Source: Acidobacteriota bacterium (GTDB taxonomy: Bacteria > Acidobacteriota > Holophagae > Holophagales > Holophagaceae). From it: 36,164 nt of DNA. A program made the translations under genes and the position numbers. The notes below the pieces were generated by a model, which ran no database searches, had not been told where the DNA came from, and saw nothing but the letters and a program-made list of their open reading frames with translations. This document shows, one piece after another, positions 11,888 through 34,045 of the stretch. The first letter of the stretch is position 1. Each line of letters begins with the position of its first letter. The DNA is taken from positions 1 through 36,164 of the forward strand of contig JAJZQW010000020.1 in assembly GCA_021802985.1 (NCBI GenBank). Direction: 5' to 3'.

Positions 11888-14800
11888 ATGTCCCCCGCGC
11901 TTGATGCCTTCCTGAAGACCTGGCGAGGTTCCGCCGGGAACGAGCGGGCGAACTTCCAGTCATTCCTTCGGGACTTCTGCGCGGCGCTGGAACTGCCGGT
12001 GCCCGAGCCCAAGGGGGTGGAGTCCACCCATTGCTTCGAGAAGGATCTCAAGCTCACCCACCTGGACGGCACCACCACCACCGGCTCCATCGACCTCTAC
12101 CGCGAGGGCTGCTTCGTGCTGGAGGCCAAGCAGGGCAGCACCACCGACGTGCCCGGCTCCGCCCCCCGGCGGGGCACCCGCGCCTATGACCGCTACATGG
12201 AAGCGGCCTTCGGGCAGGCCGTGAACTACGCCCGCAACCTGCCCCAGCGCCCACCCTTCGTCCTCACCTGCGACATCGGCCACGCCTTCCATGTGTGGGA
12301 TGGCTTCTCCGGGGCCTACGGCGGCTATGGCGCCCGGCGCAGCTTCACGATGGACGACCTTCGTACGCCCAAGGTGCAGGAATACTTTCGCGCCCTGTGG
12401 CTGGATCCCCAGAGCCTCGACCCCGCCCGCACCCGCACGGCCGTCACCCGCGACGTGGCCGCCGCTCTGGGCGGGCTGGCCCGCAGCCTGGAGGCCCGGT
12501 TCCCCGCCGAAGTCGTGGCCCGCTTTCTCATGCGGGTGGTCTTCACCTTCTTCGCGGAGGACGTGGGCCTGCTGCCGGAGAAGCTCTTCCAGAACGCCCT
12601 GGAGGGGGCCTGGAAGGAGCATCCCGAGGCCTTTCCCAAGGGCATGGAAAGCCTGTGGGACGCCATGAACACCGGCGGCTTCTGGGGCCCCCTCAAGGTG
12701 CTTCGTTTCAACGGCGGCCTTTTCGCCGAGAGCCTGGCCCTGGACCTCACCGCCGAGGAGATCGCCCGGCTGGCGAAGGCGGCGGCATTCAACTGGTCCG
12801 AGGTGGACCCCAGCATCTTCGGCACCCTGCTGGAGAGCGCCCTGGATGCCCGGGAACGCCACCGCCTGGGGGCCCACTACACCCCTCGGGCCTACGTCGA
12901 GCGCCTACTCCGCCCGGCCCTGGAGGAACCCCTCCGGGCAGACTGGGAACTGGCTCAGGCCGAGGCCATGGCCCTGCTCGGCAATGATCCCACCGAGGCC
13001 GACAAGGCCAAGGCCCGGGAGGTGCTCCACGCCTTCCAGCGCCACCTGGCCCATGTGACGGTGCTCGATCCGGCCTGCGGCAGCGGCAACTTCCTGGCCA
13101 CGGCCTACGACGTGCTGAAGCGCCTGGAGGGCGAGGTGCAGCGCCGGCTGGAGGATCTGGGCGAGACGGGCCGCTCCCTGGCGTTGGAGGGCGTGCTGGT
13201 GACGCCGGGGCAGTTCGTGGGCCTTGAGGTGAAGCCCTGGGCCGCCGCCATCACCGACCTGGTGCTGTGGATCAGCCACCTGCAATGGTTCCACCGCCTG
13301 CACCCCGATTTGGCCCCGCCCGAGCCCGTGCTCCAGGCCTACGACAACATCCAGTGCCGCGACGCCGTGCTGACATCGAGCGGCACCCGCGAGACCGGAC
13401 GCAGCCGCTGGGATGGCCGCACCTTCAAGGCCCACCCCGTCACGGGCAAACAGGTACCCGACGAGACCGCCCAGACCGCCATCGTCGAATACCTGGACCC
13501 GCGCCCCGCCGAATGGCCCGACGCCGATTTCATCGTGGGCAATCCGCCCTTCCTGGGGAACAAGCGGATGCGCGAGGTTCTGGGGGACGGCTATGCCGAG
13601 GCCCTCCGCGCCGCCTATCCCGAGGTGCCTGACAGCGTGGACTTCGTCCTCTACTGGTGGCACAAGGCCGCCGAGGCCGTGCGGGCAGGCCGCGCCCGCC
13701 GCTTCGGCCTCATCACCACCAACAGCCTCACCCAGACCTTCAACCGCCGCGTCATCGCCCACCACTGCGCCGTCTCTATCACCGTTCATCACCGTTTATC
13801 ACCGGCGAAAAAAAGAAATCCAGCCGGTGATGAACGGAGATTCACGGTGATAAATGAAAAGGAAATCCCTGGCTTGAAATTGCTCTGGGCCATCCCCGAC
13901 CACCCCTGGACGGACGAGGGCGCCGCCGTCCGCATCGCCATGACCGTGGGCGGCCTGGAAGGGCATCCCTGGCTGGGCCGCGTGGTGGAGGAACACCGCG
14001 CCGACACGCCCGAAGCCGAGGCGGCGGCCGTGAAGGTGGAAGGACGGGGCGTGGAGGTGATCCACGAGGATCTGAGCGCGGGAGCGAACGTTGCCTCGGC
14101 CTCGCCCCTCAAGGCCAACTCGGGACTTTGTGGCCAGGGAATGAAGATCGTTGGTGACGGATTCTACGACCACCACGAGCTTTCAACTTCCATCATTTCG
14201 CCAACGACCGGAGTGCCGATTGTCAGAACCATCCTGAATGCCCAAGACATCATCCAGGGCCGGCCTGGACGGAAGATCATCGATTTCTTCGGGCTCACGG
14301 AGGCCCAGGCCAGGACCCTTCATCCCGCTGCCTACCAGCAAGCGCATGACGAGGTGCTTCCGATCCGGGGCCAGAACAGCCGCGCCTCCATCCGGGATCT
14401 GTGGTGGCGTTTTGCCTGGGAGAGGCCGGTGGTCCGAGACGCGATCAAGGGTTTGGGGCGCTACCTTGTCACCCTCTCTGTATCCAAACACCGTTTCTTT
14501 GTTCCCATTCCCGAAGAAGCGATCTGGGACGGGGCGCTCTTCGCCATCGCGAGCAACGAAGCCTTCCACATGGGCGTCCTCTCCTCCCGTGTCCACCTTG
14601 CTTGGGCGCTCGCGGCTGGGGGAACGCTTGAGGATCGGCCCACCTGGACCAATTCCACCTGCTTCGACCCCTTCCCCTTCCCAAACGCCACGGAACCGCA
14701 GAAGGTCCGCATCCGCGACCTGGCGGAGCGGCTGGATGCGCACCGCAAAGCGGCCCAAGGCCGGGGCGTGACGATCACGGGCATGTACAACCTCCTGGCC

Positions 14801-15349
14801 AAGCTGCGGTCGGGGGAGGCTTTCACGCCCAAGGAGCGGGCGCAACACGAGGCCGCCCAGACGGAGATCCTCCGCCAGCTCCACGACGAGTTGGACGCCG
14901 CCGTGGCCTTGGCCTACGGCTGGCCAGCAGACCTACCCGACGCGGAGATCCTGGAGCGCCTGGTGGCCCTCAACCGCGAGCGGGCCGCCGAGGAGGCCAA
15001 AGGTCTCGTCCGCTGGCTGCGCCCCGAATACCAGGCCCCCCACGCCGCCGAGCCGGTGGCTGCAACCATCCTCGAGCTGGAACCGGAGGCGGCGTTGGCG
15101 GTGGCCCCCATCGAGCCCCAGCCCTGGCCCAAGGACCTCAAGGCCCAGCTCGCCGCCCTGAGGGGCATCCTGCTCTCCTCGGGCCGTCTATGGACCCTGG
15201 AGGCCGTCGCCCAGGCCTTCAAGAGCCGTGGCCGCTACCGCGAGAGCATCGCCGCCCACCTGGACCTCCTCACCGACCTCGGCATGCTCAGCCGCGTGGA
15301 CACCCCTGGGGGCCCGCGCTGGCATCGGCCCCAGGCAATGGGGGCCTGA
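11888..15349 (+). CDS. MmeI-family (type IIL) restriction-modification enzyme
   Basis: 1153 aa; one polypeptide carrying nuclease, N6-adenine methyltransferase and target recognition, cutting at a distance from its site. The nuclease is D69-x9-E79-A-K81, the same spacing as MmeI D70/E80/K82. Helical linker follows; methyltransferase motif I DPACGSGNFLATA (394-406) and motif IV NPPF (552-555) are intact. The target-recognition part lies near 720-960. The C-terminus is longer than MmeI (919 aa) and ends in a winged-helix-like stretch (SIAAHLDLLTDLGML). A hairpin repeat is inserted in frame at residues 631-655, between motif IV and the WAIPDHPW strand. GGAGG precedes the ATG. No separate methylase or restriction gene is adjacent. 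Confidence 0.9.
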   Translation: MSPALDAFLKTWRGSAGNERANFQSFLRDFCAALELPVPEPKGVESTHCFEKDLKLTHLDGTTTTGSIDLYREGCFVLEAKQGSTTDVPGSAPRRGTRAYDRYMEAAFGQAVNYARNLPQRPPFVLTCDIGHAFHVWDGFSGAYGGYGARRSFTMDDLRTPKVQEYFRALWLDPQSLDPARTRTAVTRDVAAALGGLARSLEARFPAEVVARFLMRVVFTFFAEDVGLLPEKLFQNALEGAWKEHPEAFPKGMESLWDAMNTGGFWGPLKVLRFNGGLFAESLALDLTAEEIARLAKAAAFNWSEVDPSIFGTLLESALDARERHRLGAHYTPRAYVERLLRPALEEPLRADWELAQAEAMALLGNDPTEADKAKAREVLHAFQRHLAHVTVLDPACGSGNFLATAYDVLKRLEGEVQRRLEDLGETGRSLALEGVLVTPGQFVGLEVKPWAAAITDLVLWISHLQWFHRLHPDLAPPEPVLQAYDNIQCRDAVLTSSGTRETGRSRWDGRTFKAHPVTGKQVPDETAQTAIVEYLDPRPAEWPDADFIVGNPPFLGNKRMREVLGDGYAEALRAAYPEVPDSVDFVLYWWHKAAEAVRAGRARRFGLITTNSLTQTFNRRVIAHHCAVSITVHHRLSPAKKRNPAGDERRFTVINEKEIPGLKLLWAIPDHPWTDEGAAVRIAMTVGGLEGHPWLGRVVEEHRADTPEAEAAAVKVEGRGVEVIHEDLSAGANVASASPLKANSGLCGQGMKIVGDGFYDHHELSTSIISPTTGVPIVRTILNAQDIIQGRPGRKIIDFFGLTEAQARTLHPAAYQQAHDEVLPIRGQNSRASIRDLWWRFAWERPVVRDAIKGLGRYLVTLSVSKHRFFVPIPEEAIWDGALFAIASNEAFHMGVLSSRVHLAWALAAGGTLEDRPTWTNSTCFDPFPFPNATEPQKVRIRDLAERLDAHRKAAQGRGVTITGMYNLLAKLRSGEAFTPKERAQHEAAQTEILRQLHDELDAAVALAYGWPADLPDAEILERLVALNRERAAEEAKGLVRWLRPEYQAPHAAEPVAATILELEPEAALAVAPIEPQPWPKDLKAQLAALRGILLSSGRLWTLEAVAQAFKSRGRYRESIAAHLDLLTDLGMLSRVDTPGGPRWHRPQAMGA
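13778..13851 (+). repeat. In-frame hairpin element of ATCACCGTT-type units inside the MmeI-like gene
   Basis: Two 28-base arms (13778-13805 and 13824-13851) are inverted copies matching at 24 of 28 positions, with an A-rich 18-base loop. Each arm consists of about three 10-base units (ATCACCGTTC, ATCACCGTTT, ATCACCGG). The stretch is A+T-richer than the gene around it and encodes about 25 basic residues not expected in the family. The frame is kept. Its architecture matches the hairpin at 33949. Confidence 0.85.
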
Positions 15350-15351
15350 GC

Positions 15352-16410
15352 TCAGCGATTCCACTCCCGCCACAGCCGCACGGTCAGTTCGCTGAGGGGC
15401 GTGGGACTCTTGGACAAAGTCATGCCCTTGATGTCGCGTTCGCATTGGACGACTTGCGAGAACAGGGTGCGCGACCGGACGGGGCCCAGCCGGGTGGCGG
15501 CAGGCAGGTAGGTTCGTCCCAGCAGCCAAGTCTGGTTGGGGGGCAATTGGATGGCCTGGGCGAGATCGCTCTCCTTCTTCGCCCCGGCCGCCATGGCCTG
15601 GGCCAGGGCGGCCACCCGGCCCACTTCCCGGGCGGCCTGGCTGACCAGCAGGAGAGAGGTCCGGTCGAAATCGTCCTCCAGGCACTCCTTGAGAATCCGG
15701 AGGGCCTGGGCGATCTGGCCCTTCTGCCAGGCCTCGGACCAGGCAAAGACGCGCTGATCGGTGAGTCGGAAGGTCATCCACGCCACCAGCTCCGGGGTGA
15801 TGACGCGGCTATCGGCGGCGAGGTCGAACACTTCCATGGCCCGCCGAAGGAGGCCCACGCTGCCTCCCAGCCGCTCCTTCAGCAGCTCGACCGACTCGGC
15901 GGGAAGCTGGAGGCCGAGCCTCTTGGCTTCCTCCTGAATGAACCCAGTGATCTCCGCAGGCTCCAGGGCCCCCACCTTGAGGATGCGCCCGGCCTTGGCC
16001 CAGTCGGTCCAGGGCTTGGATCCCAGCGGGTTGCCGGGGCCCGCGGGCACGGTGGCCCAGGCCACGAGCAGCAGCTTCAGATCGGAGGGTGGGTTCTGCA
16101 GCAAGGCGGCCACGGGAGGCGGAAGGTCTTGTTTCTTGTCCTTGGGCCCTCCCCTGCGTTTACCGAACAGGTTGTCGGCCGCAGGCACGATCACGCACCG
16201 GGCTTCGGCCCCCAGGGGCGTGGCCTCCTGCAGGGCGGCCAGGACCTCGGGCCATGGGCAGCCCTCCGCGCAGACCGTGAGGGAGAAATCGGCCCATTCG
16301 GGATCCACGTGGCGGCGCTTCCAGGCCGCTACCGCCTCCCGGCGGCCATCGCCATCCTCGCCATGGACGAGGGCGAAGCCGTGGTCCAGCCAGGCCGTGG
16401 GCGCAGCCAT
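15352..16410 (-). CDS. holA: HolA, DNA polymerase III delta subunit
   Basis: The delta subunit opens the sliding clamp within the clamp loader. 352 aa, with the weakly conserved three-domain AAA+-like pattern: an N-terminal nucleotide-fold region without a Walker motif (ARCVIVPAADNLFGKR), a middle segment ALEPAEITGFIQEEAKRLGLQLPAESVELLKERLGGSVGLLRRAME, and a helical C-terminal collar domain (ALRILKECLEDDFDRTSLLLVSQ). The start overlaps the lptE stop (ATGA); lptE-holA adjacency is common in Gram-negative bacteria. It ends two bases from the convergent MmeI-like gene. Confidence 0.88.
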   Translation of the reverse strand: MAAPTAWLDHGFALVHGEDGDGRREAVAAWKRRHVDPEWADFSLTVCAEGCPWPEVLAALQEATPLGAEARCVIVPAADNLFGKRRGGPKDKKQDLPPPVAALLQNPPSDLKLLLVAWATVPAGPGNPLGSKPWTDWAKAGRILKVGALEPAEITGFIQEEAKRLGLQLPAESVELLKERLGGSVGLLRRAMEVFDLAADSRVITPELVAWMTFRLTDQRVFAWSEAWQKGQIAQALRILKECLEDDFDRTSLLLVSQAAREVGRVAALAQAMAAGAKKESDLAQAIQLPPNQTWLLGRTYLPAATRLGPVRSRTLFSQVVQCERDIKGMTLSKSPTPLSELTVRLWREWNR

Positions 16411-16973
16411 CAGTCCGTGCCCTCCAGCAGCTGGGTAAGGAAGCTCTCGGCGAAGTCGTCCGCCAGGCTTTCGATCACCTGCACCTCCCGGTCATCGAAG
16501 CTGGCGAAGTTCTGGTCCACCCGGTACTGGTTGGAGAAGGTGAGGTGCCGCCGACTGAGCACCACGGCGCCGGTCTGCCCGTCCAGCAGTTCCACGCTGG
16601 CCACGACCTTGATCTCCACGCGGCTGGCGCTACCCGCGCTGGCCTTGTCGCTGCCATTGCCGAGGGTGAGCCCCAGGGGGCGGGATTCGTACTGCTCCAG
16701 GGTGCCCTGCAGCACCCAGCGCGACGGTTCGCCCGGCGGCACCAGCTTCCAGGGGCTGGCCGCCACGATGCGGCTCTCCAGGGCCTTGGTGAAGCGGTCC
16801 TCCAGGCCCAACTTAGGCGTGAGGTTGCGGAACCGCGCCAGCCGGATCGTCTCCCCCTTCTGGGCCCAGGCCGCCTTCCGCGGCTCCCGGTCCAGCCGGT
16901 GGTACCCGCAGCCGGAGGAGAATAGGAGGCAGGACATCAAGAGGAAAATGGTCGCGGAAGGCACGGAAGTCAC
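16410..16973 (-). CDS. lptE: LptE-like outer-membrane LPS-assembly lipoprotein
   Basis: LptE plugs the LptD pore that delivers LPS to the outer membrane. The protein shows a lipoprotein signal ending FSSGC, then GYHRL, as LptE usually begins after the Cys. Further family-like stretches are RLARFRNLTPKLGLEDRFTKALESRI and SRVEIKVVASVELLDGQTGAVVLSRRHLTFSNQY. The start is uncertain: GTG 16973 (188 codons), GTG 16964 and ATG 16937 are all in frame, none with a good ribosome site. The signal has no basic residue because its 5' end lies in repeat DNA of the neighbouring GxxExxY element. GTG 16973 overlaps that gene's TGA. The context with holA supports the call. Confidence 0.82.
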   Translation of the reverse strand: MTSVPSATIFLLMSCLLFSSGCGYHRLDREPRKAAWAQKGETIRLARFRNLTPKLGLEDRFTKALESRIVAASPWKLVPPGEPSRWVLQGTLEQYESRPLGLTLGNGSDKASAGSASRVEIKVVASVELLDGQTGAVVLSRRHLTFSNQYRVDQNFASFDDREVQVIESLADDFAESFLTQLLEGTD

Positions 16974-17446
16974 TCGGAAGACGCGGAATAGGGATTGTGT
17001 TGCATCACGAAGCGCCGGATGCCTTTGCGTCCCATCGGATAGACGCCGAAGTTCAGGAGCAACCCGACCGGTTTCCCCGAAAACCGGAGGTAGCTCAGGA
17101 TCTGCGCTTCATGTTCGGGTGTAAATGCTTCAGCGACCTTCAATTCGACCACCAGCACATCGTCCACGACGAGGTCCATACGGAAAGCCAGGGGAACACT
17201 CAGTCCGCGATAGGTCAATCCGAGACTCACCTGGCATTCGACCCGATGTCCCCTCAACTGAAGTTCATGTGCCAGACAAGCTTCATAGGCGCTTTCCAGC
17301 AGCCCAGGACCGAGGGATCGCTGAACTGCGATCGCCGCTCCAATGACTGATCGGGTCAGATCCGGGTGGGGTCCATCGATTTGAAGCTCCTGGACGACGG
17401 TGTCTCCCGCGTCTTCCGCGCTCTTTCCGCGCCTTCCGCGACCAGC
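16949..17446. mobile_element. Putative GxxExxY element with inverted periodic ends
   Basis: The left end (16949-16989) and right end (17406-17446, inverted) align over about 40 bases: each begins TGGTCGCGGAAGGC and continues with CGGAA repeats spaced 9, 11 and 9 bases. Between them lies only the GxxExxY gene, whose first 20 codons and last codons are made of end DNA. It separates hpt from lptE. No target-site duplication is evident. Mobility is inferred from the inverted ends and from a second, gene-less copy at 19825. Confidence 0.65.
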
Positions 17447-17458
17447 CAGATGAGTCAT
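16970..17458 (-). CDS. GxxExxY protein 1, PD-(D/E)XK nuclease-like
   Basis: 162 aa. The family-naming motif is G52-LL-E55-SA-Y58. The nuclease-like core follows: D95 in FRMDLVVDD, E105 and K107 in VVELK (D-x9-E-x-K), then EHEAQILSYL and VGLLLNFG. The family's function is not established; the residues look intact for a metal-dependent nuclease. The only early start is ATG 17458, overlapping the hpt stop (ATGA), so residues 1-20 are translated from the inverted end repeat and are poor in family sequence. The last residues also come from repeat DNA, and the TGA overlaps a possible lptE GTG. Confidence 0.85.
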   Translation of the reverse strand: MTHLAGRGRRGKSAEDAGDTVVQELQIDGPHPDLTRSVIGAAIAVQRSLGPGLLESAYEACLAHELQLRGHRVECQVSLGLTYRGLSVPLAFRMDLVVDDVLVVELKVAEAFTPEHEAQILSYLRFSGKPVGLLLNFGVYPMGRKGIRRFVMQHNPYSASSE

Positions 17459-17976
17459 GGGTGGAACACGCCGACGTAGGGGAGGTTGCGGAGCTTGCCG
17501 TCGAAATCGAGGCCGTAGCCGACGACGAAGTGGTCCTCGATGGTAAAGCCGACGTAGTCCACGGGCACTTCGATCCTGCGGCGGCTGGGCTTGTCGAGGA
17601 GGGTGCAGATCTTCAGGCTGGCCGGCTCGCGGTCCAGCAACAGGTTGCGGACCTTGAAGAGGGTCAGTCCCGTGTCCACGATGTCCTCCACCACCAGGGC
17701 GTGGCGCCCCTGGATGGAACGGTCGAGGTCCTTCAGGATGTGCACCTCGCCGGTGCTCTCCGTGCCGCCGCCGTAGCTGGCCACCTGCATGAAGCTCACG
17801 TCGAAGTCCAGCTCCGTGGCCCGGGCCAGGTCCGCGAAGAAGGGGAAGACGCCGTTGAGGAGGCCCACCATGACCAGATCCTTGCCCACATAGTCGGCGG
17901 CCAACTGGCGGCCCATCTCGCGCACCCGGGCGCGAATCTGCTCCTCAGTCAGCAGGGGGGTGACGCGATCACGCAT
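17455..17976 (-). CDS. hpt: Hypoxanthine phosphoribosyltransferase
   Basis: Purine salvage enzyme making IMP or GMP from hypoxanthine or guanine and PRPP. 173 aa. The PRPP-binding loop is LVVEDIVDTGLTLFKVRNLL near residue 95-110. The N-terminal LVMVGLLNGVFPFFADLARA and C-terminal VPVDYVGFTIEDHFVVGYGLDFDGKLRNLPYVG are typical of Hpt. GGAG precedes the ATG. The TGA overlaps the GxxExxY ATG. Confidence 0.95.
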   Translation of the reverse strand: MRDRVTPLLTEEQIRARVREMGRQLAADYVGKDLVMVGLLNGVFPFFADLARATELDFDVSFMQVASYGGGTESTGEVHILKDLDRSIQGRHALVVEDIVDTGLTLFKVRNLLLDREPASLKICTLLDKPSRRRIEVPVDYVGFTIEDHFVVGYGLDFDGKLRNLPYVGVFHP

Positions 17977-18116
17977 GGGGTCTCCGGGGCGAGGGATGGG
18001 GGGGCCTGACTGACCCGTCTCCTACCCTAACTTGCTTCCATTCAACCCCAGGCCCCCTTCCTGGGTCCATCCAGTGTCGGCGGATCCTGGCTTGATCCTC
18101 CCCGCCGGAGCCTAAG

Positions 18117-18764
18117 ATGATGCTGGCAGTTGCCTTGAACGAGCCCAAGATGCCCCAGATGGCCACCCAGTCCGCCGAGCGGATCCCGGATCCGGCCTCG
18201 CCGTACCATGCGCCGGAGGTGCTGGTCTGGGTGGAGGCCGCCCAGGGCGGGGATCAGGCCGCTTTTGCCTCCCTGGTCCGGCTCTTCTCCCGGGATGTGT
18301 ACGGCAAGGCCTTTTCCATCCTGAAGAACCACCAGGACGCCGACGACGTGGTCCAGGAGACCTTCATCCGGGTGTTCCGGGCCCTGCCCGGCTTCCGCTT
18401 CGAATCCTCGTTCCGCACCTGGCTCATCACCATCGCCACCCGCCAGGCCCTGAACTACCGGGAACGCATGTCCCGCGACCACGAAAGCCTGGAGATGCCC
18501 GAGGAAGGCCTGGAGCATCCGGCGCTGCGGGTCGAGGAAACCCAGGCCGCCGCCCTGCTCGACGAGGAAGCCCGCCGCCTGCTCTACGAAGCCCTGCCCA
18601 AGCTGCCCCGGCGCCAGAAAGAGGCCCTGACGCTCAAGCTCCAGCACGACTGGAAGTACGAGCGCATCGCCGCGGAGATGGGCACCTCCGTGGGCAGCGT
18701 GAAGGCCCACATCTTCCACGCCATCCAGAGCCTGACCCGCCATGTCAAAGGAGGCCGTCCATGA
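18117..18764 (+). CDS. RpoE-like ECF sigma factor
   Basis: 215 aa. Region 2 is DVYGKAFSILKNHQDADDVVQETFIRVFRALPGF with FESSFRTWLITIATRQALNYRER (-10 binding). Region 4 is LPRRQKEALTLKLQHDWKYERIAAEMGTSVGSVKAHIFHAIQSL, a helix-turn-helix for the -35. The segment before region 2 is longer than minimal and may be disordered. GGAG lies six bases before the ATG. The stop overlaps the next gene (ATGA). Followed by a putative anti-sigma factor and a periplasmic Spy-like protein, it probably serves an envelope-stress regulon. Confidence 0.93.
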   Translation: MMLAVALNEPKMPQMATQSAERIPDPASPYHAPEVLVWVEAAQGGDQAAFASLVRLFSRDVYGKAFSILKNHQDADDVVQETFIRVFRALPGFRFESSFRTWLITIATRQALNYRERMSRDHESLEMPEEGLEHPALRVEETQAAALLDEEARRLLYEALPKLPRRQKEALTLKLQHDWKYERIAAEMGTSVGSVKAHIFHAIQSLTRHVKGGRP

Positions 18765-19270
18765 GGCACGCGTCCCTCCCCCTGCCCGAAGCCTGCGAGC
18801 GGATCCTTGCCGCCGTCGAGGTTGATCCCCTGGACCCTGGCCCCGAGGCGGAGCTGCACATGAACTCCTGCACCGCCTGCTCGGAAGCCCGCGTGCTCTA
18901 CCTGGCCCAGGAGGAGGCGCCCCAGGTCCTGGTGCCCGCCGGGTACTTCGACCGCCTGCCCGGACGGGTGCTCGGCAAGCTGCCGAATCGTCGCCCCACC
19001 CTGGCCCACCAGGCCCGCAGCCTGTACTGGGCCGCCGCCGCCGCCCTGCTCATGGCCGTGGGCGCCGGGGCCTTCTGGGCGGGCCGCGCCAACCGCACGC
19101 CGCTGGTGGAGGCCACGCTCCCGAAACCCGCCGATACGGTCGAAATCACCATCCCCGATGCGCCCTTCCACGACCGTGACGAGGATGCGGCCCAGATCCA
19201 GACCCTGAGCCCCGACGAAATGAAGGCCCTGTTGAAACGCATGGATGACCCCACCCCCTCCCAGAGGTGA
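18761..19270 (+). CDS. Putative transmembrane anti-sigma factor
   Basis: 169 aa. The N-terminal cytoplasmic part has a zinc-finger-like H33-x3-C37-x2-C40 (HMNSCTAC), as in zf-HC2 anti-sigma factors. One membrane helix lies at about 87-107 (YWAAAAALLMAVGAGAFWAG), and a short periplasmic tail is acidic. Translation is coupled to the sigma gene by ATGA. The usual second upstream His is not obvious, so the metal site may be incomplete. The role is inferred from position and topology. Confidence 0.78.
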   Translation: MRHASLPLPEACERILAAVEVDPLDPGPEAELHMNSCTACSEARVLYLAQEEAPQVLVPAGYFDRLPGRVLGKLPNRRPTLAHQARSLYWAAAAALLMAVGAGAFWAGRANRTPLVEATLPKPADTVEITIPDAPFHDRDEDAAQIQTLSPDEMKALLKRMDDPTPSQR

Positions 19271-19274
19271 CCCA

Positions 19275-19799
19275 ATGTTCCGCCTACCGACGCTCCTCCT
19301 CCCCGTTCTCTTGATCGCCGCCCTGCCGGTGGCCCGGGCGCAGTCTGAGGACGAAGGCCGCCTGCTCTACCGGTTCCGGATGAACCACCTGGAGCAGAAC
19401 GTGGGTCTCCCCGCAGACCAGGCCCGGGTGGTCGTCGAACGCTGGGCCCGCTACGACCGGGACCTCTTCGAGAAGGCCCGCCAGATCCGGGAGATCCGGG
19501 GGCGATTCAACGACATCCTGCTGGGCCCCGGCTCGGAGGAGGAAAAGAACGCCAAGGTCGGGCCCCTGCTGGACCAGTTCGTGGCGCTCCGCCACCAGCA
19601 GATGAACCTGAAGCTCCAGTTCGAGGATGACATCCGGGTCCACCTCAGCCCGGCCCAGCAGGTCCGGCTCATCCTCCAGGTGGACGAGATGCAGCGAAGA
19701 ATGGTGGAGGCCCTGCGCCAGGGCCTGGGCAACCGACCGGGCATGGGGCTGGGCAACCGCCAGGGCCCGGGCGGCGGCCTGCGTCGCGGGGGACGCTGA
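19275..19799 (+). CDS. Spy/CpxP-like periplasmic stress protein
   Basis: 174 aa. Signal peptide MFRLPTLLLPVLLIAALPVARA with a cleavage site near ARA-Q. The mature part is helical and highly charged, with two LTxxQ-like spots (VGLPADQARVV and LSPAQQVRLIL), as in Spy/CpxP chaperones and 'heavy-metal sensor' proteins. The C-terminus is Gly/Arg/Asn-rich and repetitive (LGNRPGMGLGNRQGPGGG). AGAGGTGA precedes the ATG, four bases after the anti-sigma stop. It probably feeds or protects the envelope-stress circuit. Confidence 0.78.
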   Translation: MFRLPTLLLPVLLIAALPVARAQSEDEGRLLYRFRMNHLEQNVGLPADQARVVVERWARYDRDLFEKARQIREIRGRFNDILLGPGSEEEKNAKVGPLLDQFVALRHQQMNLKLQFEDDIRVHLSPAQQVRLILQVDEMQRRMVEALRQGLGNRPGMGLGNRQGPGGGLRRGGR

Positions 19800-19824
19800 T
19801 CCGGATATTCCGGCGAGAGAAAGC

Positions 19825-20005
19825 GCTGGTCGCGGAAGACCCGGAAAGAGACACGGAAGGCGCAGAAGGGTCCTGGGCGCCCGCTGAAACGATGCCGTGA
19901 TGGACCGACTGGTCCTGCCCGCTCGCATGCACAACAGCGCAAGCCAAGCACCTGACCCCAACCTTCCGCGCTTTCCGCGCGGGTTCCGCGCATTCCGCGA
20001 CCAGC
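19825..20005. mobile_element. Gene-less (MITE-like) copy of the GxxExxY-type ends
   Basis: The left end (19825-19869) and inverted right end (19961-20005) both start GCTGGTCGCGGAA and continue as CGGAA units spaced 9, 11-12 and 9 bases. The roughly 90 bases between hold no plausible gene. The box is shared with the ends of the GxxExxY element at 16949 (11 of 13 bases there at the left end, all 13 at the right end). It sits between the convergent Spy-like and rnj genes and could fold as a long hairpin and serve as a terminator. No clear target duplication was found. Confidence 0.7.
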
Positions 20006-20023
20006 AAACGCCTGGGCGGCCTG

Positions 20024-21739
20024 CTATTGGGGCGCCTCCAGCAGCACGGGGACGACGAGGGGGCGGGTCTGGGTGGTCTTGCGGATGATGCGGCGGAGGG
20101 CCTGCCGGATGACCTCGCGCAGGGCCTCGGGATCCTTCCGGACCTCGGCGGGCGCCTCCTCGAAGGCCTTGCGCGCCACACCCCGCAGCAGTTCGCCATA
20201 GGTCACATCGTCGGAGAGCATGACGAAGCCCCGGCTCAGGATGGTGGGATCGGCCGCGAGGGTGCCGGTGGCCGAATCCACCAGCAGCGTGGCGAAGACG
20301 ACGCCATCCTCCTGGAGGATGAGCCGGTCCTGCACCACCCGGGCGTCCACCATGTGATCCACGCCCTCGTGGACGAAGCACTTGCCCACCGGCACGGCGC
20401 CAGGCTGGTCCAGACGACCGTCCAGGAAGAGCCGCAGGCACTGTCCACCGTCCAGCAGCGAGATGCGCTCGCGGGGCCAGCCCAGGGACTCCGCCAGGGC
20501 CCCGTGGGCCCGCAGGTTCCGGTAGGTGCCATGGACCGGCACCATCTGACGGGGCCGCACCGCGCGGATGAGATCCGCCAGTTCCTCCCGCTGGCCGTGG
20601 CCCGAGGCGTGGACCGTGCCGAGGCCCTCGATGGACGTCTCCGCCCCGAGCCGCTCAGCGGCATCGAGCATGCGGGAGATGGCCACTTCGTTGCCGGGAA
20701 TGGTCCGAGCACTGAGGAGCAGGCGGTCGCCCGGTTCCAGGGGCAACCCCTTCACCTCGCGGCGCAGCAGCCGGGCGAGGCCGCTCATGGGCTCGCCCTG
20801 GCTCCCCGTGCAGATCACCAGAAGTTCCGAGGGAGGATACTTGGCGGCATCCTTCACATCCAGGAAGAGATCGTCCGGCAGCGCCAGCCGCTTGAGGGAG
20901 CGGGCCAGATTGACGCTCCGCTCCAGGCTGCGGCCCAGCAGCACCACCTGCCGACGGTGCTGGTAGGCCAGGTTCAACAGCGTCTGGAGGCGATGGATGT
21001 TGGAGCTGAAGGTAGTGACCACCAGCCGGCCCGGGGTCGCCCCGAAGGCCGCATCCAGGCCTTCCCGGCAGGCCACTTCGGGCAGCGACCGACCCGGGCG
21101 CTGGATGTTGGTGGAATCGGCCATCAACAGCCGCACCCCGGCATCCCCCAACTCGTGCAGCCGGTCCATCCCCGTGTGGCGGCCATCCAGGGGCTCCGGA
21201 TCGATCTTGAAATCACCGGAATGGACCAGCACGCCCTGGGGCGTATGGAGGACCAGGGCGCAGGCATCGGGGATGCTGTGGGTGACGGGGATCCACTCCG
21301 CCTCCACCTCCCCATCGCCCACCCGGACGCGACCGTAGTCCCGGACCGGATGCAGCAGGTTCAGATCGAGGCCATGTTCCTTCAGCTTGCCCTCCACCAA
21401 CCCCAGGGTGAAGGCTGTTCCATAGACAGGCACGGGCCAGCGCCGGAGGAAGTAGGGCAGCGCCCCGATGTGGTCCTCGTGGCCGTGGGTGAGCAGCACG
21501 GCCTGGATGCGGTCGGCGAAGGGCTCGAGGTAGGCGAAGTCCGGCACGATGGAATCAATGCCCGGCTGGTCATCGGAGGGGAACAGCTGGCCGCAGTCCA
21601 CCAGGAACAGGCTGCGGGCGCTGTGGACCACCAGGGCGTTCATGCCGAACTCCCCCAGACCGCCGATGGGGATCAGGCGAAGTTCGTCCTTGCCCGGCGG
21701 CCGGTCCCAGTGGGTGAAGGCGGGGGCAGTCGAGATCAC
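20024..21739 (-). CDS. rnj: Ribonuclease J (metallo-beta-lactamase / beta-CASP)
   Basis: RNase J is a 5'-3' exonuclease and endonuclease in mRNA decay and rRNA maturation. 571 aa, the usual length. The zinc motif is LLTHGHEDHIGALPYFL (about 80-96); further metal or substrate parts are VTHSIPDACALVLHTPQG and LVHSGDFKIDPEP. The beta-CASP parts are TFSSNIHRLQTLLN, CTGSQGEP, and ASGHGQREELADLIRAVRP followed by PVHGTYRNL. The start is GTG at 21739, overlapping the rsmA stop (GTGA). Confidence 0.95.
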   Translation of the reverse strand: MISTAPAFTHWDRPPGKDELRLIPIGGLGEFGMNALVVHSARSLFLVDCGQLFPSDDQPGIDSIVPDFAYLEPFADRIQAVLLTHGHEDHIGALPYFLRRWPVPVYGTAFTLGLVEGKLKEHGLDLNLLHPVRDYGRVRVGDGEVEAEWIPVTHSIPDACALVLHTPQGVLVHSGDFKIDPEPLDGRHTGMDRLHELGDAGVRLLMADSTNIQRPGRSLPEVACREGLDAAFGATPGRLVVTTFSSNIHRLQTLLNLAYQHRRQVVLLGRSLERSVNLARSLKRLALPDDLFLDVKDAAKYPPSELLVICTGSQGEPMSGLARLLRREVKGLPLEPGDRLLLSARTIPGNEVAISRMLDAAERLGAETSIEGLGTVHASGHGQREELADLIRAVRPRQMVPVHGTYRNLRAHGALAESLGWPRERISLLDGGQCLRLFLDGRLDQPGAVPVGKCFVHEGVDHMVDARVVQDRLILQEDGVVFATLLVDSATGTLAADPTILSRGFVMLSDDVTYGELLRGVARKAFEEAPAEVRKDPEALREVIRQALRRIIRKTTQTRPLVVPVLLEAPQ

Positions 21740-22613: not shown

Positions 22614-25600
22614 TCAACGCACAGTGCGCCAGGTGCGGGGTCGGGGAAGGCGATCCTTGACTTGACCGAAGATGGTTCTGATCTGGGTGGAGGTGGTCGT
22701 GCCGCCCGTGGGCGGGGTGGTTGACACCAACCCCGCCTGGTTGACCGATACGGTGCTGCGAGCGGAGAAATTGGTGGCCACACCGGTCCAGTAGTACACA
22801 TTCCCTCCAACACAAGGACCATTGTAGCTGTTGGTCACTGTGGCCGTGGTCCCGTCTCCATTCCCCTGAAACACCGGATAGAGCACATCACAGACGCGAT
22901 TGGAAAAGGTCTGGCCTGAACCTCCACTGCACGGATCTGCCGTCTTGGGCGTGAAGTAGGAGTAGAACAAGGCGCCCCCCAGGACCAATGGTTCATTGAT
23001 CCCCTTGGGAATGAATGTGGTGTTGCCACTCTTGGCGGGTGAGGGAAATGCAATTTGATATCCCCGCTTGGAATTCGCCAAATAGAAACTGGCGTTCCCC
23101 GGAGTCACCGCCGCAGGGGTGGAGGCACTGGCCGCCGTGTTCGGAACCGTGTAAAGATCGGCGGATGTGATGGGCGTGGCGCCAGTGTCGGCGCGCTGGC
23201 TGTCGAACAACACCATGGCCTCATGGCCGGTGGGCAGATTAGTCGTTTTGTAATTGTAGTCCAGGGGGTTGTTGCGATCCCCGGTCACCACGGCAATTCC
23301 AACAGGAATGGTTCCCGCCGAGGAAGGCAAGTTTGCCGTCAAAAAAGGAGCCGGCAGGGTGGATATGAAATCAATGGGAATTCCGGAACTATTCATATTG
23401 CCGGTATAGATCTTCCGCAGGGACAAATCGCTACCGACCTTCCCATCCACGGTCCAGGCATCCAGGTTACTGGTATCGCGACGATAGTTGTAATTATCAG
23501 AAGCCGTCGTGGAATTTCCGGAACCCAGCGCCCAAATGCTTCCGTTGAAATCCGTGAAGTAAACCCGCTGAGTCAGACCGCTGTTGAGGAAATATTCAAA
23601 GGGGACCAGACCGGCCCCCACAGGCCCCATGCCCGCTGCGGTGGCACTCAGCTTGGCGTCATTCATGAAGTCCCAGGCCATGAGGATATTCCCCGTGGCG
23701 ATATCCACCGCCAGCGCGGATCGTCCGAGCGGCGTGGGATTGCCGGAGGTATTCAGGAACTGGGCCTCCACCTCGGGCGTACTCAGGCCTCCACCCAGAA
23801 AAAGGGCATCCTTGAGTTGCACCACCGGGGTGCCGTAGGCCACCCGCCCCACGGCCAAGGTGGAGGTGGAGTACCCCATGTTCTCCACCACGCTGGTCAC
23901 CGTGCTCTGGGTGGCGGAGGCCCCGATCCGGCTGCTGAGAATGGTGGGATCGAGCGTGGTTTCATCGGGGGAAAGGGCCCAGGACATGCTGGGCGTGAAG
24001 GGATCATGAATATCCAGGGCATAATAGCTGCGCCCCCCCTTGCGCAGACCGAAGACCAACCGGGCGGTCTCCGTGCTATCCACGGTGCCATTGCCCAGCA
24101 TGGAGCCGCTGGCGGCCGAATCCAGCCAGTAGACGTAGGGCGTTCCATCCACCAGGAAGCGATGGCTCTTGGCTGTCAGAAGGTAATCCAGGTTAGCCAA
24201 AAGGTCCGTAGGCACGAAGGCCCACAGTTCATCCACCACGCCATGGGTCAAGGGATTGGCAGGATCTGTGGTGCTGTCCACCCAACTGACCTCTCCGAAG
24301 GCGTGCAACATGCCCTGATTGGTTCCGACAAAGATCACCCGGAAGCGTGCGGTGGCAATATTACTGTTATAGGCCGCCAGGAGGGATGCTGGGAGTTTGC
24401 TGGTATCGATGGCCCCGGCTCCCGTGAGGGTGTATTCCACCGCCGCCGGGGCACTGTCAATCACATCCCCCATGATGGTGCTCCGATTGGGGAACAGGGC
24501 CGCGGTCGAGGAAGTATCCGCACCCAGGACGAACTCGATAACGGTATTCTTCACCGTATCGGAAGTCTGCGAAGTGGCCACGGAGCCCTTGATGGCAGCG
24601 AAGCCAGAGGCCGAAGCCACGGTCGTCGAAGGATAGCCCGCTGGCGGATCGAAGGCGAACGGCACCAAGGGAGGATTTGGAGTGGTGGCCGTGGCAGGCA
24701 GCCGGGTGTAGACCTTCCGCTGGTACCAAGGACGGGCAGCCATGGCGTTGGAAGTCGCCCACCCGGCCGTGGAGGTATCCAGTATCGTGGCGGTGCTACC
24801 CGTCTTGGTAAGAATGACCGTTTGGCCATTGACCTGCTTCGTAGGGAACATCATCAGATTGCCCGGCCAAATGGGGCTGACTGTGGTGGGCGGGGTGAAG
24901 GTGCCCAGGTAGATCTCGGAGGCCAAGCCCAACCCCACAAAAGGGACGGAGGGGGAAGAGGCCGTGGTCCCATTGGCAATCTGGGTGATATTGGTGATGA
25001 CAGAGGCGATGTTGTTCACCAGCGCGTTGGGATCCCGGGCATCGAAGAAATAGGTTTTCTGGGCGGCTGTGGGATCGTAGGGCTTGACTTGGCTCAGGCT
25101 CCATGAATTATTTTTGGGGTCCCCATTTGCTGCCGCCGCAAGCAAGGCATATTTCGCTGAACTCGAATCCAGGTAGCTGCCGGGGAGGCTCACGCCCACG
25201 GTCATGGTCTGGATGGCTAGGGGCGGCGTGAAGGTGGAACTGTAGCTCGTGCCACTTCCCCGTTCCTGGATGAAAAAAGGGGCAAAGGCATCGGGAGCCT
25301 GAGCCGAACTCGTAGGGTAGGTACTCGGAGCAACCAAGTAATTGGTCAGCTTCGTATCCCCAAGATGGGCCGCGGCTCCTGCCAAGGTCCAGATGTTGAA
25401 ATAATCGTTTCCCGGATCGAACTTCATGACGCCAGCAGCGAGAATGGTCTTGTTCCCTTCCAGCGCATTGCTGCTGCCTCCGGGAATGCTGGAGGGATTA
25501 TAAGGATCCTGGCTCCCGATGGCAGAGCCACCCCCATAGGTATCATTCGCAATGCCATCCGTGAAAAGCACCACGAACATGGTCTGGCAGTTGGGTGACG

Positions 25601-26885
25601 TATACTTGTCTGCCGTATGGGGCGCATCGAAGACGCTGTTTTTGTCCACATTCAACTGAGCCAGCACATTCGCAAAGGCGTAGGTCAAGGGTGTGCCTGC
25701 GCCAGGGAGGGCTGAAGCCAGGGCTTTCACGGATGGATCCGGATTTCCGCCGGTTGCCTTATTGAACAGCGTCAAGGCGCGGGTATTTGAGTTCGAAGAA
25801 GGGTTGGGCGCATTCGTATTGCTGGGATCTACGGTCGAAAGCCCCTGCTCATCCTTGTAATCCAGGAACCGATAGGCCCAGTAGACCTTGGTCTGATTGG
25901 CGAGCCAGGCCGAAATCACGGCTCGTTTCACGCCTTGGTATCGGGTCAGTACAGGAATGCCATTCTTGAAGGCTTGACCCGCTGCGGTTGTGGAATCAGG
26001 AATAATGTAGCTCGCTGTGTTCGTCCATCCTGTCGGGTTGGCCGCGTCATTGGGAACATCCATGCCAAAGAAAAGCCATTGGATATAGTCACGCGTGTAC
26101 CAGAAATGACCAATCCAGCCCTGACCAGGGCAACCAGGGAAATAGCCGGTCACGTCACTGCTGCTGTAGATATTGGACGCCGAGTCCGTCGCTGCCGTAT
26201 CAAAATAGTTGGCCGTGTTGCTATTTTGGGAGTCAGCCGCAAAGCTTGTCGAATAACTACTGCTTGCTTTTGCGATTCCAGAAGGCGAATCAAAAATGGT
26301 CCACGGAATGGGCAGATCCAATTGTCGCGTAAGTGATGCGTTGGAAAGGCTTCTCATAGTGATGCGGACATGCGTCGCCAAGCGAATCCAGTTGGTGGCA
26401 TCATTGGTCTTTCCCAGCGAGCCCGATTGGGCAGTGACATCCGCATTCGTCACAGGGGTGCCATCGGGCTTGATCAGAATGCCATCTGCGGCGAAGGGGT
26501 TTGCCTTGAAACTCCCATCATTAATATGATAGGTTGCAAAATTTATGGTCGGTCCGGTTATTGAAGACATGGTGTTAACATAAGGACGCACCCAAGTATC
26601 GTCACCCCCCGTATAACCTGAAGGGAGATGATGGCGTTCACTGTTATCCGAGTAGTAGCTCGGATGCCACATGAGCGCATTCATGGACCCCGAGAAATCC
26701 AGCACGCTGACGATTTCGGGCTTGACGTTCAGCGCATTGGTTTTCTGGTAGATGTCTAGGAAATCCGTCGTGCTGGCCTGCAGCCTGGGATCCAGCTGGG
26801 CGGCGAGGGGCGTGGACAGGAGGGCAGCCAGGCCGAAAATGGCCATGGCTCGGGCAATCACGGGGCGGCGGAACTTGAAGGTCAT
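22614..26885 (-). CDS. pilY1: PilY1-like type IV pilus tip adhesin
   Basis: 1423 aa. The signal peptide ends at LAAQ near residue 30. A von Willebrand A domain follows, with MIDAS DFSGS at 63-67 and FVVLFTDGIAND near 440; a large serine/asparagine-rich insert lies within it. The C-terminal part is the PilY1 beta-propeller: RFRVIFVGTNQGMLHAFGE, FGLRKGGRSYYALDIHDP, LAVDIATGNILMAWDF and VYFTDFNGSIWALG. PilY1 sits at the pilus tip and affects adhesion, retraction and surface sensing. The 5' half of the gene is visibly richer in A+T than the pilin genes beside it. It is the last gene of the fimT-pilV-pilW-pilX-pilY1 operon. Confidence 0.92.
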   Translation of the reverse strand: MTFKFRRPVIARAMAIFGLAALLSTPLAAQLDPRLQASTTDFLDIYQKTNALNVKPEIVSVLDFSGSMNALMWHPSYYSDNSERHHLPSGYTGGDDTWVRPYVNTMSSITGPTINFATYHINDGSFKANPFAADGILIKPDGTPVTNADVTAQSGSLGKTNDATNWIRLATHVRITMRSLSNASLTRQLDLPIPWTIFDSPSGIAKASSSYSTSFAADSQNSNTANYFDTAATDSASNIYSSSDVTGYFPGCPGQGWIGHFWYTRDYIQWLFFGMDVPNDAANPTGWTNTASYIIPDSTTAAGQAFKNGIPVLTRYQGVKRAVISAWLANQTKVYWAYRFLDYKDEQGLSTVDPSNTNAPNPSSNSNTRALTLFNKATGGNPDPSVKALASALPGAGTPLTYAFANVLAQLNVDKNSVFDAPHTADKYTSPNCQTMFVVLFTDGIANDTYGGGSAIGSQDPYNPSSIPGGSSNALEGNKTILAAGVMKFDPGNDYFNIWTLAGAAAHLGDTKLTNYLVAPSTYPTSSAQAPDAFAPFFIQERGSGTSYSSTFTPPLAIQTMTVGVSLPGSYLDSSSAKYALLAAAANGDPKNNSWSLSQVKPYDPTAAQKTYFFDARDPNALVNNIASVITNITQIANGTTASSPSVPFVGLGLASEIYLGTFTPPTTVSPIWPGNLMMFPTKQVNGQTVILTKTGSTATILDTSTAGWATSNAMAARPWYQRKVYTRLPATATTPNPPLVPFAFDPPAGYPSTTVASASGFAAIKGSVATSQTSDTVKNTVIEFVLGADTSSTAALFPNRSTIMGDVIDSAPAAVEYTLTGAGAIDTSKLPASLLAAYNSNIATARFRVIFVGTNQGMLHAFGEVSWVDSTTDPANPLTHGVVDELWAFVPTDLLANLDYLLTAKSHRFLVDGTPYVYWLDSAASGSMLGNGTVDSTETARLVFGLRKGGRSYYALDIHDPFTPSMSWALSPDETTLDPTILSSRIGASATQSTVTSVVENMGYSTSTLAVGRVAYGTPVVQLKDALFLGGGLSTPEVEAQFLNTSGNPTPLGRSALAVDIATGNILMAWDFMNDAKLSATAAGMGPVGAGLVPFEYFLNSGLTQRVYFTDFNGSIWALGSGNSTTASDNYNYRRDTSNLDAWTVDGKVGSDLSLRKIYTGNMNSSGIPIDFISTLPAPFLTANLPSSAGTIPVGIAVVTGDRNNPLDYNYKTTNLPTGHEAMVLFDSQRADTGATPITSADLYTVPNTAASASTPAAVTPGNASFYLANSKRGYQIAFPSPAKSGNTTFIPKGINEPLVLGGALFYSYFTPKTADPCSGGSGQTFSNRVCDVLYPVFQGNGDGTTATVTNSYNGPCVGGNVYYWTGVATNFSARSTVSVNQAGLVSTTPPTGGTTTSTQIRTIFGQVKDRLPRPRTWRTVR

Positions 26886-33571: not shown

Positions 33572-33991
33572 ATGCCCGACATCAAGTCCCTATGCGATCA
33601 GATCCGCCAGACCTCGTTCCAGATCCACAGCTACCTTGGAAGCGGTCACCTCGAGAAGGTGTACGAGAACGCTCTGGCCCACCGATTGCGCAAGGCTGGA
33701 CTGAAGGTCGAACAGCAGCGCCCCATCAAAGTCTTCGATGAAGACGGCACTCTGATTGGAGACTACCTGGCCGATCTGTTTGTAGAAGACGTACTGGTTG
33801 TAGAGCTGAAAGCCGCAAGGAGCCTGGCTCCCGAACACGAAGCCCAGGTGCTGGGCTACCTCAAAGCTTCGAGGATCGAACACGGGCTATTGATCAACTT
33901 TGGAGCCACGAAATTCGAGATCCGCAAATTTATTTGGAATGAAAATCAGCCACAAAGAACACAAAATACACAAAAGAATGAAGCTTTGTGA
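33572..33991 (+). CDS. GxxExxY protein 2, PD-(D/E)XK nuclease-like
   Basis: 139 aa. Motif G25-HL-E28-KV-Y31 (in LGSGHLEKVYENAL) gives the family its name. Nuclease-like residues: D68 (YLADLF), E78 and K80 (VVELK), the same D-x9-E-x-K as the first copy, then EHEAQVLGYLKAS and GLLINFG. It is more A+T-rich than tsaD and gatC. The last residues (QPQRTQNTQKNEAL) are the translation of a hairpin repeat that begins inside the gene. The weak repeat-like GCCACAGGAAACGCC just before the ATG may be a worn left end. It differs clearly from copy 1, so it is not a recent duplicate. Confidence 0.88.
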   Translation: MPDIKSLCDQIRQTSFQIHSYLGSGHLEKVYENALAHRLRKAGLKVEQQRPIKVFDEDGTLIGDYLADLFVEDVLVVELKAARSLAPEHEAQVLGYLKASRIEHGLLINFGATKFEIRKFIWNENQPQRTQNTQKNEAL

Positions 33992-34010
33992 CCTTTGTGC
34001 CTTTTGTGGC
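33949..34010. repeat. Hairpin element of CACAAAG-type units at the end of GxxExxY gene 2
   Basis: Arms 33949-33976 and 33984-34010 are inverted copies, each beginning GCCACAAA at its outer end and made of three 9-10-base CACAAA units, with a 7-base loop. The gene's last 14 codons are in the left arm. Bases 34011-34036 (CATTCT, a T run, TTGTGATTTATGTGG) look like further decayed units that could pair with the GAATG at 33976-33980. The hairpin lies between the GxxExxY gene and gatC and could also act as a terminator. Confidence 0.8.
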
Positions 34011-34045
34011 CATTCTGTTTTTTTGTGATTTATGTGGAGCCTGAT

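Follow-up and report, generated by a model that had tools for sequence, protein, structure and literature searches.

The 181-bp feature at positions 19825–20005 of the window (the whole 36,164-nucleotide stretch of Acidobacteriota DNA that was analyzed) is probably a non-autonomous, hairpin-forming member of a mobile family, some members of which bear a GxxExxY gene and may move members with the same terminal word in trans. The analysis shows directly that the ends are common to both kinds, that gene-less copies are numerous, that such ends generally bracket GxxExxY genes, that the words track the protein, that ends and gene co-occur across genomes, that sites are occupied in some relatives and empty in others, and that the elements sit just after gene ends. 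The features concerned are as follows:

16410–16973, minus strand: LptE-like gene, one flank of the GxxExxY element
16947–16988, plus strand: left end of the GxxExxY element, with the same box and four CGGAA words spaced 9/11/9
16970–17458, minus strand: GxxExxY protein gene (TIGR04256 / PF13366 PDDEXK_3), predicted Cas4/RecB-like nuclease and candidate mobilizer
17404–17446, minus strand: right end of the GxxExxY element, with an exact GCTGGTCGCGGAA, three CGGAA boxes and CGGGA
17455–17976, minus strand: hypoxanthine phosphoribosyltransferase (hpt) gene, the other flank of the GxxExxY element
19245–19799, plus strand: 184-aa gene upstream of the 181-bp element, convergent with the RNase J gene
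19815–19826, plus strand: A-rich outer flank ending in GC (GAGAGAAAGCGC), from flank comparison
19825–19869, plus strand: left arm, comprising GCTGGTCG and four boxes (CGGAA, CGGAA, CGGAA, CAGAA) spaced 9/12/9, from sequence, repeats and pattern search
19870–19960, no strand: element interior, locus-specific
19961–20005, minus strand: right arm, comprising GCTGGTCG and four perfect CGGAA boxes spaced 9/11/9, from sequence, repeats and pattern search
20024–21739, minus strand: RNase J family gene, its stop at 20024, 18 bp from the element

The original prediction had described two inverted arms with four CGGAA-type boxes each, and both are present: CGGAA lies at 19833, 19842 and 19854 and CAGAA at 19863 in the left arm, and the minus-strand CGGAA boxes of the right arm lie at 19993–19997, 19984–19988, 19973–19977 and 19964–19968. 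Both arms begin with GCTGGTCGCGGAA, and the ~90 bp between them encode nothing plausible, as had been claimed. The position between two convergent genes was likewise confirmed, with the 184-aa gene ending at 19799 and the RNase J stop at 20024. The ends said to be held in common with the GxxExxY element 2.4 kb away are also there, the 13-base box being exact at 17434–17446 and matching at 11/13 bases at the left end (16947–16959). There are exactly four occurrences of the 20-base end motif TGGTCGCGGAANNNNCGGAA in the window, which form two inverted pairs; with up to two mismatches allowed, 0.05 occurrences are expected by chance, and no shuffle gave four. There was no Rfam match up to E = 1 in 16400–20600, and a plasmid similarity search gave no match.

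The gene at 16970–17458 scores 125.9 bits against TIGR04256 (cut-off 35) and is a clear member of the TIGR04256 / PF13366 family, with all catalytic residues present. Residues G50, G52, E55, Y58, D95, E105, K107, Q119, Y123 and N136 are invariant in 70 GxxExxY sequences, and E55, D95, E105, K107, Q119 and Y123 among them are catalytic; the D, ExK and QxxxY motifs together with the fold place the protein with the Cas4/RecB-like PD-(D/E)XK nucleases. The structure model has a pLDDT of 85 and is low mainly in the first 18 residues, which are largely encoded by the end repeat. Its best structural match is the Cas4 nuclease SSO0001 (PDB 4ic1), with Z = 9.3, where values below 8 may reflect a common fold alone, and the next matches are other PD-(D/E)XK proteins, Holliday-junction resolvases included. 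Foldseek alone gave E-values no better than 4e-3. The kinship with Cas4 is drawn from the fold comparison and not from the PDB sequence search, which returned one insignificant match only. The protein thus has the same D, ExK, QxxxY pattern as Cas4, RecB and lambda-exonuclease-type nucleases, and its best fold match lies among them. Cas4 proteins usually bind an Fe–S cluster; in contrast, the GxxExxY core is about 120 aa long and has no invariant cysteines, and no CRISPR context was seen.

The dispersed family that had been proposed was recovered in the host genome (G000; 2.3 Mb, 72% complete), where a pattern search, rather than an exhaustive scan, located 24 exact ends, with none for the reversed control pattern. 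These are mostly gene-less pairs placed just after stop codons, usually within 40 bp, and all but one of the 16 pairs examined measure 91–177 bp between TGGTC and GACCA. Their arms are ~79% identical to one another, and their interiors are mutually unrelated; the interior at 19870–19960 has no similarity to those of the other gene-less CGGAA copies in G000, nor to a 150-bp GC-rich core common to the CGGAA elements of other genus members. Because of that common core the elements of the congeners behave like a conventional multi-copy MITE, whereas those of G000 do not. Homogenization of the arms within elements was considered for the gene-less G000 copies and dropped, as left–right identity was 0.77 within and 0.79 between elements. 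The original prediction had called the feature a MITE, a term that fits loosely because the G000 interiors are unrelated to one another. Like IS-mobilized MITEs, the element is gene-less and bounded by terminal inverted repeats, has a gene-bearing partner whose ends are the same (16947–17446), and shows both occupied and empty sites; unlike them, it has unrelated interiors, no recognized transposase and no established target-site duplication.

Differences in occupancy between relatives, looked for as insertion polymorphism, were found at several sites. At the site of the 181-bp element, 17 congeners lack any element between the two convergent genes. G000, G024 and G042 have a CGGAA element there, G023 has just the right arm, G030 has a mixed remnant, and G014 (CAGAG), G035 (CCAAG) and G048 (CCGATG) carry hairpins of other words. 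The copy at G000:C79:15774-15892 is missing in both of the closest relatives, where a plain hairpin terminator stands instead, and that at C79:26867-26983 is missing in G014, occurs as CGGAA in G023 and G024, and gives way to a CAGAG hairpin in G025. The analysis saw no transposition event, no target-site duplication and no excision product; the relatives with empty sites are too diverged for exact junctions. Nested elements are common, with a CAGAG pair surrounding a CGGAA pair, which in turn surrounds a GC-rich core; examples are L366 (G032:C56:21500-22500), L371, L367 and L368, and at L001 (G000:C2:4465-4892) a CGCCAAG array lies inside a CGGAA element. Elements with CAGAG on the left and CGGAA on the right were considered as hybrids, an idea set aside when reading of the sequences identified several as nested. 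The RNase J site of G032 (L098) carries a different repeat-like sequence, GGCAGTGCCCCCAAAGGGG, which is not of the word-array type.

The link between word-array ends and GxxExxY is general. All eight GxxExxY genes of G000 were read, and seven have inverted arrays of a short word on both sides, the words being CACGAAG (two loci), CACGGATG, CGCCAAG, CAGGATTAA, GCGAAAG and CGGAA. Of 127 GxxExxY loci in the host family, 102 are flanked by inverted word arrays that score higher than 95% of the mismatched-flank controls (median score 24.5, compared with 9 in the controls), and about a fifth, including the second GxxExxY gene of the window, are without clear ends. In a further set of 77 loci drawn from Verrucomicrobia, Planctomycetes, Chloroflexi, Acidobacteria, Bacteroidetes, Proteobacteria, Cyanobacteria and two archaea, at least 50 exceed the 95% level for shifted flanks (12, against a median of 20.5 for the loci's own flanks); one archaeal locus is among these 50, and CACAGAG-like words are the commonest in the set. 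The word follows the protein: it is identical in 11/11 pairs of GxxExxY loci at unrelated sites with at least 70% protein identity, and the same in about 1% or less of such pairs below 50% identity (Spearman 0.215 overall at unrelated sites; permutation maximum 0.088). This relation indicates that the gene and its ends travel together.

The prediction would have been undermined had the ends been just as common in genomes that lack GxxExxY genes, and the opposite was found. A single common word pattern, searched for in 297 genomes of the phylum, is present in 67, of which 57 have a GxxExxY gene; the gene occurs without the searched pattern in 54 and neither occurs in 176 (Fisher p 5e-20, or 3e-17 outside the host family, uncorrected for shared ancestry). 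The gene is present in 36/38 genomes with at least five common-word ends, and 1029/1058 ends fall in genomes that have it; the two end-rich genomes in which no gene was detected (7 and 13 ends) come from genera in which it occurs. The genomes with 174, 87 and 53 ends have two, one and one GxxExxY genes, respectively, so most of these ends are gene-less. Where ends pair in end-rich genomes, they form either gene-less units of 59–211 bp or units of 436–465 bp with open frames of 123–145 aa. The association also holds by word within the genus, for which words were read for part of the GxxExxY genes only: CGGAA ends reach their highest numbers in congeners whose hpt-linked GxxExxY gene is itself bounded by CGGAA ends (p 3e-6), and CAGGATTAA ends in those with a GxxExxY gene of that word (p 6e-6), both uncorrected for ancestry. 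There are exceptions: in G028 and G029, CAGGATTAA ends are numerous although no GxxExxY gene of that word was sampled, and G030 combines seven CGGAA ends with an hpt-linked element of the CAGAG type. In the host family, the complete 4.5 Mb genome of G065 has at least 50 GxxExxY matches, an unusual expansion.

These associations bear on the alternative that the hairpins are ordinary intergenic terminators or REP-like structures, kept by selection on RNA or DNA structure, among which GxxExxY lands by chance. Gene calls around the G000 copies, made with a simple codon-position heuristic, put 9 of the 14 classifiable gene-less copies between convergent genes and none between divergent ones, as expected of such structures, and one gene-end site can bear hairpins of different words in different relatives. 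The outer flanks are A-rich or T-rich; those of the 16 gene-less copies have in common an A-rich stretch and GC before TGGTC, and GAGAGAAAGCGC fits their A-rich plus GGC consensus. RNA folding is strong, with z values of −4.1 and −5.2 for the 181-bp element. We nevertheless consider this alternative unlikely, since arrays bracket most GxxExxY loci across phyla and not shifted positions, words track the protein at unrelated sites, and the genome-level co-occurrence is strong. The suggestion that the element may also terminate transcription fared unevenly: the RNA hairpin points weakly toward such a function, but a consensus terminator scan of the element found none and a pyrimidine-rich tail is present on the minus-strand side only. 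The broader idea that all cores are captured terminators was tried and given up, the support being weak (mean z of −1.7, driven by a few copies).

It is rather unlikely that the elements are moved by a different enzyme, such as an IS or RAYT-type transposase encoded at another place in the genome, with GxxExxY as passenger or regulator. No transposase was seen in the elements, which is what this alternative expects, and they resemble REPINs, which are thought to be moved by a Y1 transposase (PMC3116915). Against it, GxxExxY is the gene within the ends in Acidobacteria, Planctomycetes, Chloroflexi, Bacteroidetes, Proteobacteria and others, and its nuclease residues are strictly conserved. The REPIN/RAYT system is the closest known kind: in both, extragenic inverted hairpin pairs are dispersed, non-autonomous and tied to a gene flanked by the same repeats (REP doublets and REP-associated tyrosine transposases; Bertels and Rainey 2011, PMC3116915). 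In contrast to REPINs, the partner here is a Cas4/RecB-like PD-(D/E)XK protein, the ends are arrays of three to four short words, and several differently worded elements coexist in one genome. The element therefore works like a REPIN and is not a member of that system, because the bracketed gene at 16970–17458 is no Y1 (RAYT) transposase and matches only PF13366 PDDEXK_3. Possibly it is a REPIN-like parasite that relies on an enzyme of a new kind.

That GxxExxY is a homing-type nuclease spreading only itself by cutting and repair, its gene-less copies being decayed remnants, would suit the one-arm remnants without a gene at the hpt site of some relatives and the lone right arm kept by G023 at the site of the 181-bp element, but is very improbable given that gene-less copies far outnumber the genes, lie at sites without trace of a gene and, in the congeners, have the 150-bp core in common.

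The reading that we favor is thus of a mobile family in which GxxExxY would move the gene-less 181-bp element in trans. Gene-bearing members carry a single gene, GxxExxY, a predicted Cas4/RecB-like PD-(D/E)XK nuclease, and members with and without the gene alike have inverted word arrays at their ends, with three to four repeats spaced 8–12 bp (here CGGAA). The protein is expected to bind its own word array, probably in a palindrome extruded as a hairpin or cruciform, and to cut it; break repair would then copy or move gene-less elements with the same word in trans, inserting them at gene ends and possibly in terminator hairpins already present. This last preference is proposed because of the nested copies and the one site at which relatives have a terminator. 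We know of no single-protein PD-(D/E)XK transposition system. More tentatively, and with some doubt, the elements could represent a bacteria-wide kind of transposable element defined by a lone Cas4/RecB-like PD-(D/E)XK nuclease, a self-specific repeated word in palindromic ends, a switch of the word in both ends at one site, and mass trans-mobilization of gene-less hairpins into gene ends or existing hairpins.

The putative word switch is seen between hpt and lptE. The hpt-adjacent GxxExxY genes form one exclusive clade (support 0.965), in which six have CGGAA words (one mixed) and four have CAGAG words, the latter being a long-branch subclade with the same four-box spacing as CGGAA. On these grounds, both arms of the element at a single orthologous locus appear to have switched word as the protein changed; re-insertion at the same place is the alternative. 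The elements compared at this site were those of the congeners at L236–L245 and L032. Apparent one-arm end remnants occur at hpt–lptE sites without a GxxExxY gene in L124 (G014), L138 (G049), L139 (G007) and L150 (G046). In the window, the first ~20 codons of the GxxExxY gene overlap the right end of the element. Its frame begins beside the hpt stop (17446–17458) and its early codons take in the end repeat, so either translational coupling to hpt or a start further inside is possible.

GxxExxY proteins form a common family, and no described role for them was found. In the open-access literature (subscription journals lay outside the search), no description was found of an association of the family (TIGR04256, PF13366 PDDEXK_3) with such ends or of the repeat words themselves with GxxExxY; one paper (PMC8934634) names GxxExxY, only as a gene beside a reverse transcriptase. 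Word-array hairpins are highly repeated in some genomes, at up to 174 sites in one. Their link with GxxExxY offers a function for the protein that can be tested and a likely origin for the hairpins, and it raises the prospect that a Cas4/RecB-type nuclease drives something like transposition where no known transposase is involved. Word and protein vary together, which amounts to a natural experiment on DNA recognition, and since the orthologous hpt element occurs with two words (CGGAA and CAGAG), a change in specificity can be tested directly.

Elsewhere in the window, the second GxxExxY gene (33590–33934) has no bracketing ends, and a hairpin of CACAAAG words lies directly downstream of it, at about 33946–34014. 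Two large frames, at 11888–15349 and 22614–26885, resemble an N6-adenine methylase-type restriction enzyme and PilY1, respectively, as judged by eye from their translations.
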